A DNA stretch of 64,000 nucleotides, from positions 208,441 to 272,440 of the forward strand of contig NZ_CVPE01000006.1 in the NCBI RefSeq assembly GCF_001049895.1, read 5' to 3'. This stretch comes from Rubeoparvulum massiliense (lineage in GTDB: Bacteria > Bacillota > Bacilli > Rubeoparvulales > Rubeoparvulaceae). Under the pieces are notes generated by a model. The model was not told where the DNA came from. It worked only from the letters and a program-made list of their open reading frames with translations, and searched no databases. Below, one piece after another: positions 20,963 to 27,843 of the stretch. Position 1 is the first letter of the stretch; each line of letters opens with the position of its first letter. A program made the translations under genes and the position numbers.

Positions 20963-21054
20963 GGAGGAGTACCCAAGCGGCTGAAGGGGATGGTCTCGAA
21001 AATCATTAGGCGGGTTCTACCCGTGCGAGGGTTCAAATCCCTCCTCCTCCGCCA
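20963..21054 (+). tRNA. tRNA-Ser, anticodon CGA
   Basis: A 92-nt class II tRNA. Acceptor GGAGGAG pairs with CTCCTCC, the anticodon loop is CTCGAAA (anticodon CGA, reading UCG) with stem ATGGT/ATCAT, a long variable arm follows, the T arm is GAGGG-TTCAAAT-CCCTC, and CCA is encoded. It is not tRNA-Sec, which would have anticodon UCA. No terminator follows: the sequence after CCA passes straight into a relaxase fragment. Confidence 0.95.
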
Positions 21055-21613
21055 AGCAAAATTGCAAGCAGGAAAAGGTGCCGGATATGAACGATGGGCA
21101 AAGATTTTTAATTTAAAACAGATGGCACAGACGATGAATTACTTAACAGAAAATAACCTGCTTGACTATAAGGATTTAGAAAAAAAAGCACAAACTATAA
21201 CGGATAATTTTAATCAATTATCGACTCAAATTAGAGATGCTGAAAAGCGTATGACAGAGATAGCAAATCTTAAAACGCATATTATAAACTATTCAAAAAC
21301 CCGTGATACTTATACCGCTTATCGTAAGGCGGGATATTCTAAAAAATTCTATGAAGAACATACTGCTGAATTACTTTTACACAAAGCTGCAAAGGCTGCT
21401 TTTGATGAATTAGATGATAAAAAGATTCCAACAATAAAGGCTTTGTAAACTGAATTTTCTGAACTTCTTTCTGAAAAGAAAAAAGCTTATTCACTATACC
21501 ATTCCACAAAAAAAGAAATGAAAAATATATTGACTGCAAAGGCAAATATTGACCGTCTTTTAGGTGAGGACATATTGGAGAAAGAAAAGGGAAAACACAA
21601 AGAACAGAGGTAA
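21055..21613 (+). pseudogene. Relaxase/mobilisation protein, 3' fragment with a nonsense codon
   Basis: From just after the tRNA CCA the frame reads a conjugative-element relaxase tail: AGKGAGYERWAKIFNLKQMA, NYLTENNLLDY, LKTHIINYSKTRDTY and YRKAGYSKKFYEEH. The frame then meets TAA at 21446-21448 (probably a former CAA Gln codon) and continues in frame with TEFSELLSEKKKAYSLYH to the natural stop at 21613. The N-terminal nickase domain is absent. This is a decayed remnant of an integrative or mobilisable element joined directly to tRNA-Ser. Confidence 0.85.
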
Positions 21614-21810: not shown

Positions 21811-23218
21811 TCACTAGTGTTGCATTAATTTACGCAGATGATTCAAAATATAAAAAAGATTCAATATTTATTGGTCCATACAATAAATAATCCTTTACAA
21901 TGGAAGGACAGGTGGTTCCTGTCCAAATCCAACGTAAAGGATCACTCACATGGACAAGGATACACTATTTTCGTCATTTGGTAAATGGATTTCACCCATC
22001 AATACTGACTTTTTTGATGAACAGGTCAAAATAAGGAAACTTGACTACTACACAAAGAAGCTAACGACAGAAGCTTACTTGAAATTAATGCTTCTCGCTC
22101 AGCTCAATCAATGGGATAGCTTACATGAGATGAGCGATGCTCTTGTTGATGAAGGTCTTCAGGAAACCGTAGGTTTTCAATCGATTAGCGTATCCCAGCT
22201 ATCGCGACGGAATCGTGAAATTCCATCGGATGTGATGGCCATGATATTCTTCCAACTGGTCAGTAAAATAAAGGCTTTCCATCAAAAGACCCAACCATCC
22301 ATGCCATTGAATATCATTGATTCAACTACTATCCCGTTGAATTTAGGGAAGTATGCTTGGGCGGATTTTCGAAAGACGAAGGCAGGAATTAAAGTCCATC
22401 TACGCTTAGTAATGATGGACCAACACATGACCTATCCTGACCAACTCACGATTACACCCGCTAAAGAACACGATCGCGGGCAATTGGAAGTTCTCATCGA
22501 TGACAAGAACGCGACTTATGTGTTTGATCGAGGTTACATCGATTACGAACGCTTTGATCGTATGACGGATGACGGCTATTTTTTCGTGTCCCGTTTGAAA
22601 GCTAATGCCGTCACTCATCCCATTAAATCTTTTGACACCGGTGAAAATCCTGCGATCCTTTCGGATCAAATGGTTTGGCTAGGGACCTCACCAAGCCTTG
22701 CAGAAAACGTTTTCCGACTCGTTGAAGTGCTCGATCATCGCGGGAAAACACTTCGATTGATTACGAATCGATTTGATATTCTTCCGGAGGAAGTGAGCGA
22801 GATCTATCGTGCCCGTTGGGCGATTGAGCTATTCTTCAAATGGTTGAAGCAGCATGTGAAGATTAAAACGTTCTATGGTGAAAGTGAAAATGCTGTCAAA
22901 AATCAAATCTATACGGCATTGATCGTATATTGCCTTCATGTTTTGATTCAGCTAGAGATGAATCGTCAGCGGAAAATACTTCAGATTCAACGTTGGCTCA
23001 AACGTTTGCTTTGGAAACCAGCCAATCAATGGGTTCGTCGCATGGAGGACCGTACGGTCCCTTAAGAAATGGTATCTGTCGTTGTTGCCCCTTTGATTAA
23101 ATTGTATAAATATGCCAAATGGACAGAACCACTTTTTGTTCGAGTTTTCCTTTTTTAACTTGAAAGCGAGAGAATCAATAAACAAAATATTCTATCTTTA
23201 TTTATACAACACTAGTGA
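21811..23218 (+). mobile_element. IS4-family insertion sequence, complete
   Basis: About 1.41 kb bounded by inverted repeats: TCACTAGTGTTG at the left and its exact complement CAACACTAGTGA at the right, extending to 16 of 18 matches. It contains one transposase gene. The flanks show no exact target duplication (AATGATTTAAT left and AATTATTTCAT right share 9 of 11). The right end lies inside the 5' part of the agrC-like gene. Confidence 0.85.
21950..23065 (+). CDS. IS4-family DDE transposase
   Basis: A 371-residue transposase with IS4 hallmarks: the first Asp in NIIDSTTIPL, the second in YVFDRGYIDYERFD, and the YREK-like segment with the catalytic Glu in YRARWAIELFFKWLKQHVKIK. The frame is intact and the flanking inverted repeats are present, so the element may still move. 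Confidence 0.95.
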   Translation: MDKDTLFSSFGKWISPINTDFFDEQVKIRKLDYYTKKLTTEAYLKLMLLAQLNQWDSLHEMSDALVDEGLQETVGFQSISVSQLSRRNREIPSDVMAMIFFQLVSKIKAFHQKTQPSMPLNIIDSTTIPLNLGKYAWADFRKTKAGIKVHLRLVMMDQHMTYPDQLTITPAKEHDRGQLEVLIDDKNATYVFDRGYIDYERFDRMTDDGYFFVSRLKANAVTHPIKSFDTGENPAILSDQMVWLGTSPSLAENVFRLVEVLDHRGKTLRLITNRFDILPEEVSEIYRARWAIELFFKWLKQHVKIKTFYGESENAVKNQIYTALIVYCLHVLIQLEMNRQRKILQIQRWLKRLLWKPANQWVRRMEDRTVP

Positions 23219-24431
23219 ATTATTTCATACTTTTTTTAATGAAAATGTTTATAATAGCAGAATAGAAAAACTATCTTATTTATTGTATTTTGTTTCATCT
23301 TCAGTTTTAATATTTATTACTAAAGTTCCGTTAATTACATTGATTTTCACATTAAACTTTTTGTTTATTATTTCTTTAAATTATGAGAGTTCCATTCAGA
23401 AGAAAATTATTTTTTCATCCCTTATTTATGCAATATTGTTTGTAATCGAAATTATTGTTTCAGTAAGTATTGGGTTCATAGATATTTCAGCAATTCATAA
23501 TAGTACTTTTAACTCAGTTGTAGGCTTGATACTAATACGAACAATAACTTTGATTGTAGCTTATTTGTTAAATAAATACAAAAGTTCAAGGAAGGAAGAT
23601 TTTCCTATACCCCAGATTTATTATTTAGCTCTTATTGTTATCTTATTTGGAACATTATATTTATTTGTAACTTCTTTAGAAAATGATAATTTAACACTAT
23701 ATAATGTACTTATCAGCGGATCTATTTTAATTATTGTCAATGTGACTATGATAGTAATAGATGAAAAAATATATAATTCAATTATTGCAATGAACGAAAA
23801 AAATATTTTAAAGCAGCAAAATATTGCATATGAAAACCAAGCAGAAATTATTAGTCAGTCCACTGAATCCATTAAATCACTTAAACATGATATTAAAAAT
23901 CATTTAATTATGCTCGACGAAATGTACAAAAATGATAAAAAAGATGAAGTGGAACCTTACATACGGAAAATTTTAAAGGAAATAGATAGTGGGGCATTTT
24001 CTCAATCTAATAATTTTGTGATTGACAGCATTGTTAATTTTAAACTGAGAAAGTTGCAAAATACTGATACAAAAATATTTGTAGATATAAGTGTTCCACA
24101 ATCTATTAATATTTTTGCGTACGATATTACTGTTATACTAGGTAATTTACTTGATAACGCTATCACCGCTATCCTGCAATCAGACAACAAGAAATTAGAT
24201 TTACAAATAAGTTGCAGTATGGGAAATCTAATTATTTTAATGGATAACTCTTTTGACGGCAAGTTAATTATTGATAATAGCAAATTTAAAACTACAAAAT
24301 CCTTTAAAGCCAATCATGGGATAGGACTTGCTAATATAGAAAAATCTTTAGAAAGTTACGGTGGAGAAATAAGAACAGAGTATACTAGTGATACTTTCTC
24401 TGTAGCTGTTATAGTTCCATACAAAAATTAA
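23112..24431 (+). CDS. AgrC-like GHKL sensor histidine kinase, 5' end replaced by the IS
   Basis: A 439-residue reading frame. Several hydrophobic helices (about residues 55-200) form a peptide-sensor membrane domain. The kinase part has the phosphoacceptor region SLKHDIKNHLIMLDEMY, the N box GNLLDNA and the G box HGIGLANIEK, as in AgrC/GHKL kinases that sense cyclic autoinducing peptides. The first 35 or so codons lie within the IS end and do not belong to the family, so the native start was lost by insertion. No good ribosome site serves ATG 23112. It may be non-functional or expressed as a fusion. Confidence 0.8.
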   Translation: MPNGQNHFLFEFSFFNLKARESINKIFYLYLYNTSELFHTFFNENVYNSRIEKLSYLLYFVSSSVLIFITKVPLITLIFTLNFLFIISLNYESSIQKKIIFSSLIYAILFVIEIIVSVSIGFIDISAIHNSTFNSVVGLILIRTITLIVAYLLNKYKSSRKEDFPIPQIYYLALIVILFGTLYLFVTSLENDNLTLYNVLISGSILIIVNVTMIVIDEKIYNSIIAMNEKNILKQQNIAYENQAEIISQSTESIKSLKHDIKNHLIMLDEMYKNDKKDEVEPYIRKILKEIDSGAFSQSNNFVIDSIVNFKLRKLQNTDTKIFVDISVPQSINIFAYDITVILGNLLDNAITAILQSDNKKLDLQISCSMGNLIILMDNSFDGKLIIDNSKFKTTKSFKANHGIGLANIEKSLESYGGEIRTEYTSDTFSVAVIVPYKN

Positions 24432-24480
24432 AAATAAAATTAGAGATGGGATAAGTTTTTCCATCTCTAATTTTATTTTA
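24432..24480. terminator. Terminator after the agrC-like gene
   Basis: An 18-bp perfect stem (24432-24449 with 24461-24478) that ends in TTTTATTTT, directly after the stop codon. Confidence 0.85.
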
Positions 24481-24499
24481 TAACCTTAAAATTCATCAC

Positions 24500-24561
24500 T
24501 TATACCCTAAATTCAATCATTTATACCCTAAGTCCGCACAAATCTTAAAAATGTATATAAT
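24500..24561 (+). promoter_or_regulatory. LytTR-type operator and promoter of agrDB
   Basis: TTATACCCT occurs twice, at 24500-24508 and 24521-24529, 21 bp apart (9-bp repeats, 12-bp spacer), the geometry bound by AgrA-type LytTR regulators. A TATAAT box lies at 24556-24561, and the -35 position directly follows the second repeat without resembling TTGACA, which fits an activator-dependent promoter. Confidence 0.65.
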
Positions 24562-24602
24562 AAACTTATATTGGGAATTTATACCAAGGAGGTAATGTGT
24601 TA

Positions 24603-24761
24603 ATGAAAAAGTTTAAAAAAGAAAAGTGGGTATACAGGTTGGGAAGTATGGTTGCCTCACTTGCATTGGTAGTGACAGCATTAAATGTAAATACTGCTTG
24701 CGTATACATTGCCCATCAGCCAAAGCTACCAGATTCAGCTAAAAAATTTCGTAAATTTTAA
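24603..24761 (+). CDS. agrD: AgrD-like cyclic autoinducer peptide precursor
   Basis: A 52-residue peptide. It has a basic amphipathic start (MKKFKKEKWVYRLGSM), a hydrophobic leader (VASLALVVTALNVN), then the core TACVYIA with a single Cys, and the recognition tail HQPKLPDSAKKFRKF. This fits the cyclic lactone autoinducer family, in which AgrB cuts after the core and closes a thiolactone from the Cys; CVYIA would give a five-residue ring. AAGGAGG lies upstream. Its TAA overlaps the ATG of agrB (TAATG), so the two are coupled. Confidence 0.88.
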   Translation: MKKFKKEKWVYRLGSMVASLALVVTALNVNTACVYIAHQPKLPDSAKKFRKF

Positions 24762-25327
24762 TGTTTACAAAAGAAATGAACAAGCTTGCAGATGTTCTGA
24801 TTGAAAAAGAGATAAGTAAGGGTGAAGATAAGGATTTAATAGTTTATGGCCTTAGTACTGGTATTGAGCTTTGTTTCAATATTATAACAACAATAGTATT
24901 AGGTTTTTTGTTTGAAATGGTATTTGAAAGCCTTGTCTTCCTTCTATCTTTTTCTCTCATTCGTACATATGCAGGTGGTTATCACTGTCAAAAGGCAATA
25001 AACTGTTATCTACTATCAAGTGGAATTGTGGCACTGGTGTTGCCGATAGTAAAGTTTACACCAAAAGAATTTATACCTGTAGTTGGAGTAATAATTCTTA
25101 TAATATCTATACCAATACTTATAAAGCTAGCACCAGTAGAAACACCTACTAAGCCACTTGATGAAGAAGAGAAAAAATACTATCGCAAAAAAAGGATTTT
25201 CCATTTAGTAGTGATGTGTCTTATAATAACACTTTTGTTCTTTTGGAGTCTAAACACTATAATTTTAACAATATGTCTAGGTAATCTAGTGGCAGCATTG
25301 TTTGTTATTAAAGCACAATGGGCATAG
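24761..25327 (+). CDS. agrB: AgrB-like autoinducer-processing membrane protease
   Basis: A 188-residue polytopic protein (four to six helices). The catalytic pair is visible in RTYAGGYHCQKAINCY: His and Cys separated by seven residues, as in staphylococcal AgrB. It would cleave the AgrD precursor tail and form the thiolactone. It is translationally coupled to agrD. The response regulator (AgrA) that normally completes the system is not in this window. Confidence 0.92.
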   Translation: MFTKEMNKLADVLIEKEISKGEDKDLIVYGLSTGIELCFNIITTIVLGFLFEMVFESLVFLLSFSLIRTYAGGYHCQKAINCYLLSSGIVALVLPIVKFTPKEFIPVVGVIILIISIPILIKLAPVETPTKPLDEEEKKYYRKKRIFHLVVMCLIITLLFFWSLNTIILTICLGNLVAALFVIKAQWA

Positions 25328-25466: not shown

Positions 25467-25535
25467 CAAAAAATCAATGAAAATCTTATATGTTACAAAT
25501 ATTTCGAAAATATAGAGATGAAAGGTGGAATATTT

Positions 25536-26033
25536 ATGAAAAAGACATTAATTACAGGTTTCTTATTATTATCTATGCTAATGGGCGCAACAAATGTTTT
25601 TGCTGCTTCATATTTAGGAACAGGCGATAATGTAGATTCTGGAGGACATCTAGATTGGGACTACGATACAACGTATTATAGTCAAACTGTATGGGGAATG
25701 AAGTTGTGGAATGGCTACAAAAGTGGTGTTATTAGAGAAGATAGTCCTTATGTTATTGAAGATATATTCGTAACTGATATAGATTCAGCGACAGCTGGTT
25801 ATTACGGTTACAGAGATAGAGTTAACGCTAAAATTTATTTCAATATATATAGTATGGAAGATTTAGATGCTGATGAAAAAAAATCTGTTGCTGCTCATGA
25901 ATTAGGGCATGCATTAGGTTTAGGACATAACACTAAAAATATAAGTGCGCTTATGACAAATGCACATTATTTTCCGATAACTTTGCATCAAGATGACAAA
26001 GATTCATATGATGAAGCTGCTAAATTATATTAA
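25536..26033 (+). CDS. Secreted matrixin-like zinc metalloprotease
   Basis: A 165-residue preprotein. A signal peptide (MKKTLITGFLLLSMLMGATNVFA, cut near residue 24) precedes a compact metzincin domain with the full zinc motif HELGHALGLGH and a Met-turn ALMTNAHYF. Relatives are M10 matrixin-type enzymes. ATG 25536 follows AAAGGTGG; upstream 25518 is less likely. It lies next to an agr-like quorum-sensing cluster, whose usual targets are secreted proteases, but no LytTR repeat was seen before it. Confidence 0.88.
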   Translation: MKKTLITGFLLLSMLMGATNVFAASYLGTGDNVDSGGHLDWDYDTTYYSQTVWGMKLWNGYKSGVIREDSPYVIEDIFVTDIDSATAGYYGYRDRVNAKIYFNIYSMEDLDADEKKSVAAHELGHALGLGHNTKNISALMTNAHYFPITLHQDDKDSYDEAAKLY

Positions 26034-26141: not shown

Positions 26142-26768
26142 ATGAAAAAGTTAGTAGCATTAGTGGTGGCAATATTAATGATTACTACAATTTCTGGTTG
26201 TAGTGATAATTCTAGTAATGAAATGTCAAAAACATATGATAGCTTTACACTAAGCTCTGAAGTGCCTGTAGTGTATGATGACGGAAGTTTTATGGTAAAT
26301 ATTGATAATCCTGAAGAAATAGTAGGGTGGGGAGATTATGTTTTTGTTGCAAAGGTTGAAGATGAATTAAGAACAGAATATACAAATGTTCATGAAAGTG
26401 AAGATGGTACTATCACAGGAAAGCCATATACTGTATATTCAATTACTGTTATAGACAATCTAAAAGGTAATTTAAAGAAAAATAAGCCAATTGAATTTTT
26501 TAAACATGGTGGTGTGAATTATGATGGTAAAAGTATATCATTGCTAGAAGGCGATCAATTACTAGAAAGTGGAAAATATTATATTTTAGTTGCAGCTTCA
26601 GAAGCTGATGGTAGATTAGGTCAAGGAATGCCTTATTCAGCTATTGAATTAAATGTAAGCAATAAACAAGAAATAGTATCTAGTGAAGAGTATAATAATT
26701 ATAAAAAGTATGTTAAAGATGAAGTGAAATTTGAGAGAAAACGATTTAAATCATTTGAAGAAGAATAA
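26142..26768 (+). CDS. Lipoprotein of unknown function
   Basis: A 208-residue lipoprotein: signal peptide with lipobox ISGC (Cys about residue 20), then a Ser/Asn-rich linker and a domain containing WGDYVFVAKVEDEL, YTVYSITVIDNLKGN and KYYILVAASEADGRL. This layout resembles surface cargo proteins that accompany mobile elements in Gram-positive bacteria. AAGGAGG precedes the ATG. The coding sequence is AT-rich like the rest of the island. Confidence 0.8.
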   Translation: MKKLVALVVAILMITTISGCSDNSSNEMSKTYDSFTLSSEVPVVYDDGSFMVNIDNPEEIVGWGDYVFVAKVEDELRTEYTNVHESEDGTITGKPYTVYSITVIDNLKGNLKKNKPIEFFKHGGVNYDGKSISLLEGDQLLESGKYYILVAASEADGRLGQGMPYSAIELNVSNKQEIVSSEEYNNYKKYVKDEVKFERKRFKSFEEE

Positions 26769-27366: not shown

Positions 27367-27843
27367 TCAACTATTGCTACTTTTTTTAGATTCCAAAACA
27401 TCAATCTTGTCTTTTAATCTGTAAGAAGGTCCTGTAATCTTAATAATACTTGAATGATGAATCAATCTATCCAGAATTGCATTTGCTAAGGTTATATCTG
27501 AAAATACCTCTCCCCATTTACTAAATGGCTGATTTGTAGTAATGATAGTCGAATTCTTTTCATATCTTTTATTAATTAATTGAAATAGTAAATTGGCTCC
27601 CTGCTTATCAATAGGTAAATATCCAATTTCATCAATTATGAGTAATCTATATTTTGCAAAATGTTTCAATTTAGTTTCTAATCTGTTTTCAGTATGTGCT
27701 TTGTTCAGTTGCATTATCAAATCATGGCAAGATATGAAATATACCATGTTTCTCCTTTTAGCTGCGGCAACTCCAATTGCTACAGCTAAGTGAGTTTTTC
27801 CAACTCCAGATGACCCAAAGAATAATAGCAAGCTCAGGGGAAA
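27367..27843 (-). pseudogene. istB: IstB-like ATP-binding protein of an IS21-family element, 5' truncated
   Basis: The C-terminal about 155 residues of IstB, the ATPase helper of IS21 transposition: Walker A GSSGVGKTHLA, Walker B LLIIDEIGYLPID, then TTNQPFSKWGEVFSD and LDRLIHHSSIIKI. About 95 N-terminal residues and the whole istA gene are missing, so the element is dead. Confidence 0.88.

Follow-up and report, generated by a model that had tools for sequence, protein, structure and literature searches.

In Staphylococcus aureus, the agr genes are arranged in the order B-D-C-A, and the AgrD precursor carries a tail that differs from that of the AgrD considered here; in Clostridioides difficile, the regulator RgaR is of the LytTR type. 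The direct repeats to which AgrA of S. aureus binds lie upstream of the agr promoters (PMC4227749). RgaR activates agrB1D1 and spoZ; within the direct repeats of the spoZ promoter it depends on G residues at -51 and -72, a spacing of 21 bp (PMC10602386). As for the signal itself, a five-residue AgrD-type ring has been demonstrated by mass spectrometry in Clostridium thermocellum (PMC5322536).

Here we describe an agr-type peptide module—AgrD, AgrB, and a GHKL kinase whose gene lies 5' of agrD-agrB—found in a 64-kb stretch of DNA, which we refer to as the window and to which all plain coordinates apply. The locus is of a well-known kind, though damaged, and does not represent a new architecture; probably it is a transferred clostridial agr relic, truncated beside an insertion sequence (IS), from which the peptide may still be made and in which the response would be lost.

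The agrD gene (24603..24761, + strand) encodes a 52-aa autoinducer precursor that matches TIGR04223 at 43.9 bits (cut-off 19); a ribosome-binding site, AAGGAGG, stands ten bases 5' of the ATG at 24603. The precursor consists of a hydrophobic leader and a core, CVYIA, that contains the single Cys and runs into the tail HQPKLP. Alignment with TIGR04223 and with relatives places this Cys five residues ahead of the conserved (H/Y)QP..P recognition tail, as is typical of AgrD. By analogy with described clostridial systems, AgrB would cut the precursor, if it is transcribed, and close a five-residue CVYIA thiolactone on the single Cys; the product is probably this ring with a short tail, e.g., NTACVYIA. 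The near-relative AgrDs all have NVNT(T/A)C-x4-HQ, with variation in the four residues after the Cys: the predicted ring is CVYIA in the window and in locus L090 of a Cellulosilyticum metagenome-assembled genome (MAG), CLYMA in L089 and L091, and CMFIA in L094. A preliminary description of this DNA, made from its letters, had taken CVYIA for a new core. As a peptide it was not found in the literature searched, but the Cellulosilyticum MAG encodes the same core, so it is not unique; moreover, ring residues differ from locus to locus in the agr family, and an undescribed core is therefore expected.

The agrB gene (24761..25327, + strand) encodes a membrane peptidase/cyclase of 188 aa with a PF04647 match of 144.9 bits against a cut-off of 23. 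Its His75 and Cys82, in the motif GYHCQKAINC, are invariant across the AgrB alignment, and a TAATG stop/start overlap at 24761 couples it to agrD. The parts list of the preliminary description—a 52-aa agrD with one Cys in CVYIA and an HQPKLP tail, an agrB with a His-Cys pair, coupling by TAATG, and a GHKL kinase beside the peptide genes—is upheld by these matches and by that of the kinase (PF14501, 69.6 bits).

The 2.84-Mb genome encodes no other AgrB. A search with the single AgrB sequence returned no relatives; one with an alignment of four AgrBs did reach the related loci. The protein is ~32% identical at best to its closest matches in the sampled Bacilli genomes and 56-65% identical to clostridial AgrBs, and in a quick tree the host falls with five clostridial sequences in a clade with a support of 100. 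The agr stretch has a GC content of 0.28-0.30, compared to ~0.45 in its surroundings. These features support a clostridial origin and horizontal acquisition, as read from sequence, and the proposal of an AT-rich transferred segment holds on these grounds and on those of its edge, which carries a tRNA-Ser and a relaxase-like remnant. Relative to L090, dN/dS is ~0.15 for agrC and ~0.25 for agrB; these values tell against the relic reading, but they mostly reflect the time before the damage.

The foreign sequence starts immediately 3' of tRNA-Ser(cga) (20963..21054, + strand; predicted by ARAGORN), where the transferred segment has its left edge; among the repeats listed, none was a copy of the tRNA-Ser end that would mark the right edge of the island. 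Next to the tRNA lies the decayed C-terminal fragment of a relaxase-like mobile-element protein (21056..21600, + strand), interrupted by an in-frame TAA at ~21447. It has no Pfam match above the cut-off; over 129 aa it shows 78% identity to the C-terminus of a longer L078 frame, which adjoins another agr locus. In that locus (L078:4483-8172), the relaxase-like C-terminus, close kin of the window fragment, is arranged tail-to-tail with the agr genes; a frameshift splits the kinase gene of that locus, and there is no agrD between agrC and agrB. A fragment of an IS21 helper gene lies further on in the window, at 27367-27831. The tRNA edge, the relaxase-like fragment, and the IS21 remnant are consistent with delivery by a mobile element and subsequent decay. 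That the carrier was a known plasmid or phage is unsupported, since searches of plasmids and viral contigs gave no relative.

The AgrB alignment led us to 80 related loci in named genomes, nearly all of them Clostridia. In 62 of the 80 the kinase gene precedes agrB, and in 61 agrA is ahead of the kinase; agrD with the expected motif was seen upstream of agrB in 41 loci and downstream in 5, counts that are affected by loci ending at contig ends and by divergent peptides that the motif search misses. L090, L091, and L094 have agrA-agrC-agrD-agrB on one strand, and the parts of L089 follow one another in the same way. A-C-D-B is the norm among clostridial relatives, and the order of kinase, peptide, and protease, initially regarded as unusual, is what these relatives have. 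The window module has no adjoining agrA; the genome is ~97% complete, so there is a small chance that an agrA was missed. This absence, noted from the outset, is real; its reading as an unusual architecture is not sustained, because the gene appears to be missing through loss beside an IS4-family element that abuts the kinase and also cut the agrC start—judging from the relatives, the IS now sits in the place of agrA. The Harrysmithimonas locus (L036/L116) is likewise C-D-B with no recognisable agrA beside it, so loss of agrA is not unique to the window.

The IS4-family element (21812..23217, + strand) is 1406 bp long, carries a transposase at 21950-23065 (NF033592, 243.8 bits), and ends in the inverted repeats CACTAGTGTTG/CAACACTAGTG. 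A sister copy at C5:304177-305583, 96% identical and aligning to 21812-23218 of the window, is flanked by a perfect 9-bp target duplication, ATATTCACC. The window copy has no target duplication; its flanks are TGATTTAAT and AATTATTTC, which means that they are not products of a simple insertion.

The agrC remnant (23112..24431, + strand) encodes a GHKL/HPK10 sensor kinase of family PF14501, with the H-box LKHDIKNH. Its frame is open from an ATG at 23112 within the IS; bases 23112-23217 are IS sequence, and the first 35-36 codons are IS-derived. The preliminary description placed the start of the feature at 23219: the kinase is genuine, but that coordinate is the IS junction and the frame is open from further upstream. 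AgrC of L090 reads MLDYELTHIATNTIFTFSIYK|LFHTFF..., and the window AgrC resumes at LFHTFFNE directly past the IS; past the junction, 403 residues align with 76% identity between the two. The 21 native N-terminal residues, which contain most of the first membrane segment, are missing and IS-coded residues stand in their place; the kinase core is intact. From its sequence, the open agrC frame with this core could give a chimeric sensor, which we count against the relic reading, together with the intactness of agrB and agrD. The gene ends at a hairpin with a T-rich 3' arm (24431..24479, + strand; 24-nt inverted repeat, 92%, 1-nt loop), a probable agrC terminator.

Between this hairpin and agrD is a perfect 11-bp direct repeat, TTATACCCTAA-N10-TTATACCCTAA (24500..24531, + strand), with a period of 21, which we predict to be an agrDB operator of the LytTR type; 24 bases past it is TATAAT (24556..24561, + strand), the -10 box of an agrDB promoter without a good -35. 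Base shuffling of the agrC-agrD intergenic stretch gave a perfect 11-mer repeat with a period of 20-23 in 18 of 20000 shuffles. Repeats upstream of agrD in 41 loci are enriched at periods of 21 (z 7.4) and 22 (z 9.6), and weakly at 20 (z 2.3); the other periods from 14 to 31 are not enriched. The half-sites vary among loci and match within a locus, as in TTATACCC, CACTTGTTCC, and CAATTATTACA. Direct repeats with a period of 21 or 22 bp before agrD are general in clostridial A-C-D-B loci (e.g., L089:5727-5760, L090:2676-2707, and L123 upstream of 3307). By analogy with the sites of AgrA and RgaR, the repeat at 24500-24531 would be an AgrA-type operator, now without its regulator. Its sole site in the genome is that of agrDB; none was found elsewhere, even with three mismatches.

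Two LytTR genes are present genome-wide, L034 and L035. L034 encodes a 223-aa LytTR protein in which no receiver motif was seen; L035 (C4:410731) encodes a receiver-LytTR regulator that is paired with a GHKL kinase of its own and lies close to ABC-transporter genes. The L035 regulator is 27-34% identical to the AgrAs of relatives; the AgrA of L090 is 53-73% identical to those of L089, L091, and L094, its nearest neighbours. Neither gene is the lost AgrA, although a search for an AgrA-type LytTR regulator does find both: L034 is rejected for want of a receiver motif, and L035 for its own kinase and its 27-34% identity. The L035 pair (L035:4762-6720, G000 C4) looks complete, with a transposase-type frame overlapping the 3' end of the kinase gene. 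Beside the regulator gene is a repeat, ATTGTTACA-N12-ATTATTACA, with a 21-bp period and a half-site unlike TTATACCCTAA.

It is here that a working split circuit must be weighed, in which the chimeric AgrC or a host GHKL kinase senses the peptide and the C4:410731 regulator activates agrDB in trans. The host does have this one REC-LytTR regulator with a GHKL kinase, and partial agrBD loci in C. difficile (PMC10602386) and C. perfringens (PMC7492741) rely on two-component systems that are separate from them. However, the C4 regulator is distant from the relatives' AgrAs and has a kinase of its own, its half-site is ATTRTTACA as opposed to TTATACCCTAA, and the island operator occurs nowhere else in the genome. 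We consider such a circuit unlikely; rescue by the host C4 regulator is the main rival to the relic reading and, from the sites compared, appears to be disfavoured by the different half-site.

Downstream of agrB, the secreted protease that was reported beside the module is confirmed as a small M10-type metalloprotease frame at 25518-26033 with the motif HELGHALGLGH; it is followed by a lipoprotein with no family assignment at 26142-26768. Neither has a relative in other agr loci among the matches listed, and the operator repeat was not found in front of the protease gene. The operator occurs once in the genome, so the protease lies outside any regulon it defines; we rejected it as a conserved agr partner, given that it has neither a relative in the agr loci listed nor an operator. 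No conserved protein emerged downstream of agrB in the related loci: secreted proteins are frequent there, and are neither mutually homologous nor like the window protease. In one clostridial subclade, a ~195-aa gene (motif HSNRVSQLC, 53-82% identity) lies directly 3' of agrB (L096:630, L098:4025, L101:6599, L109:2548, L111:6560, L132:610, and L143:6594); a role as target or partner of the agr type of this subclade is possible.

These neighbours bear on a second alternative, that of a selected sender without a receiver, the agrDB peptide acting on other bacteria (e.g., clostridia with CVYIA) or in regulation of the M10 protease. Such a role would suit the intact agrD and agrB and the presence of the same ring in the Cellulosilyticum MAG; on the other hand, the truncated arrangement was not found in any further genome, the protease lacks an operator and, among the matches listed, relatives in other agr loci, and an IS accident accounts for the structure without selection. 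We judge it quite improbable, and it is very improbable that the locus is a sender-only cassette by which a deaf Bacilli host, through its CVYIA thiolactone, would trigger or jam the agr circuits of clostridial neighbours with the same or a similar ring. That the kinase is unrelated to the peptide genes and its place due to chance has next to nothing to recommend it: the terminator-like hairpin does separate agrC from agrDB, but for AgrC, AgrD, and AgrB alike the best relatives sit in one set of loci, in the same order (L089, L090, L091, and L094).

Under the relic reading, which we favour, a mobile element would have brought a clostridial agrA-agrC-agrD-agrB locus in beside tRNA-Ser. Later, through either a deletion adjoining the IS4-family element or recombination involving it, the locus would have been truncated from its 5' side, losing agrA and 21 codons at the start of agrC and keeping agrD and agrB whole, with a promoter of their own. 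Before this damage, AgrC would have sensed the peptide and AgrA would have bound the 21-bp-spaced repeat before agrD, forming a positive loop. In the present genome this loop would be open, with AgrA absent, the sensor lacking its first membrane segment, and the operator deprived of its regulator; at most, there may be basal output of a signal that the cell cannot answer.

The locus illustrates how an IS can cut down an agr circuit after transfer between distant Bacillota, and it serves as a warning that a missing agrA need not mean a new architecture. The 21/22-bp operator with co-varying half-sites also offers a sequence-based means of pairing AgrA regulators with promoters.

Among known systems, the nearest relative is the locus of the Cellulosilyticum MAG (L090, JARKVN010000098.1), with AgrC 76% and AgrB 58% identical to those of the window; it shares the C-D-B order, the TAATG overlap, the CVYIA ring, and the operator with its spacing (TTTATACCCTAAGTCCGCAC). 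L090, L089, L091, and L094 have agrA before agrC, whereas the window has the IS instead, with agrA and 21 AgrC residues gone. Further relatives are found in Tyzzerella, a Clostridia MAG (INTA.CYC.007), Butyricicoccus, and Anaerotignum. The Anaerotignum locus (L092, from A. neopropionicum) is a relic too: most of agrD is missing, and what is left at L092:2860-2900 is its last codons (KLPDSAKKLRKF) before an intact-looking agrB start. The agr locus of S. aureus (agrBDCA) has the same AgrB, AgrD, and AgrC families and is a complete system, unlike the window locus. In C. difficile, agr1 (agrB1D1) with RgaS-RgaR resembles the window locus in having agrB and agrD without an adjoining agrC/agrA pair, and in its 21-bp-spaced repeats (PMC10602386); in contrast to the window locus, with its kinase remnant and no matching regulator found, agr1 is functional and served by a regulator encoded elsewhere. 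Finally, the cyclic pentapeptide of C. thermocellum has the five-residue ring in common with the peptide predicted here—closed there as a lactone via Ser, and here, as we predict, as a thiolactone via Cys.
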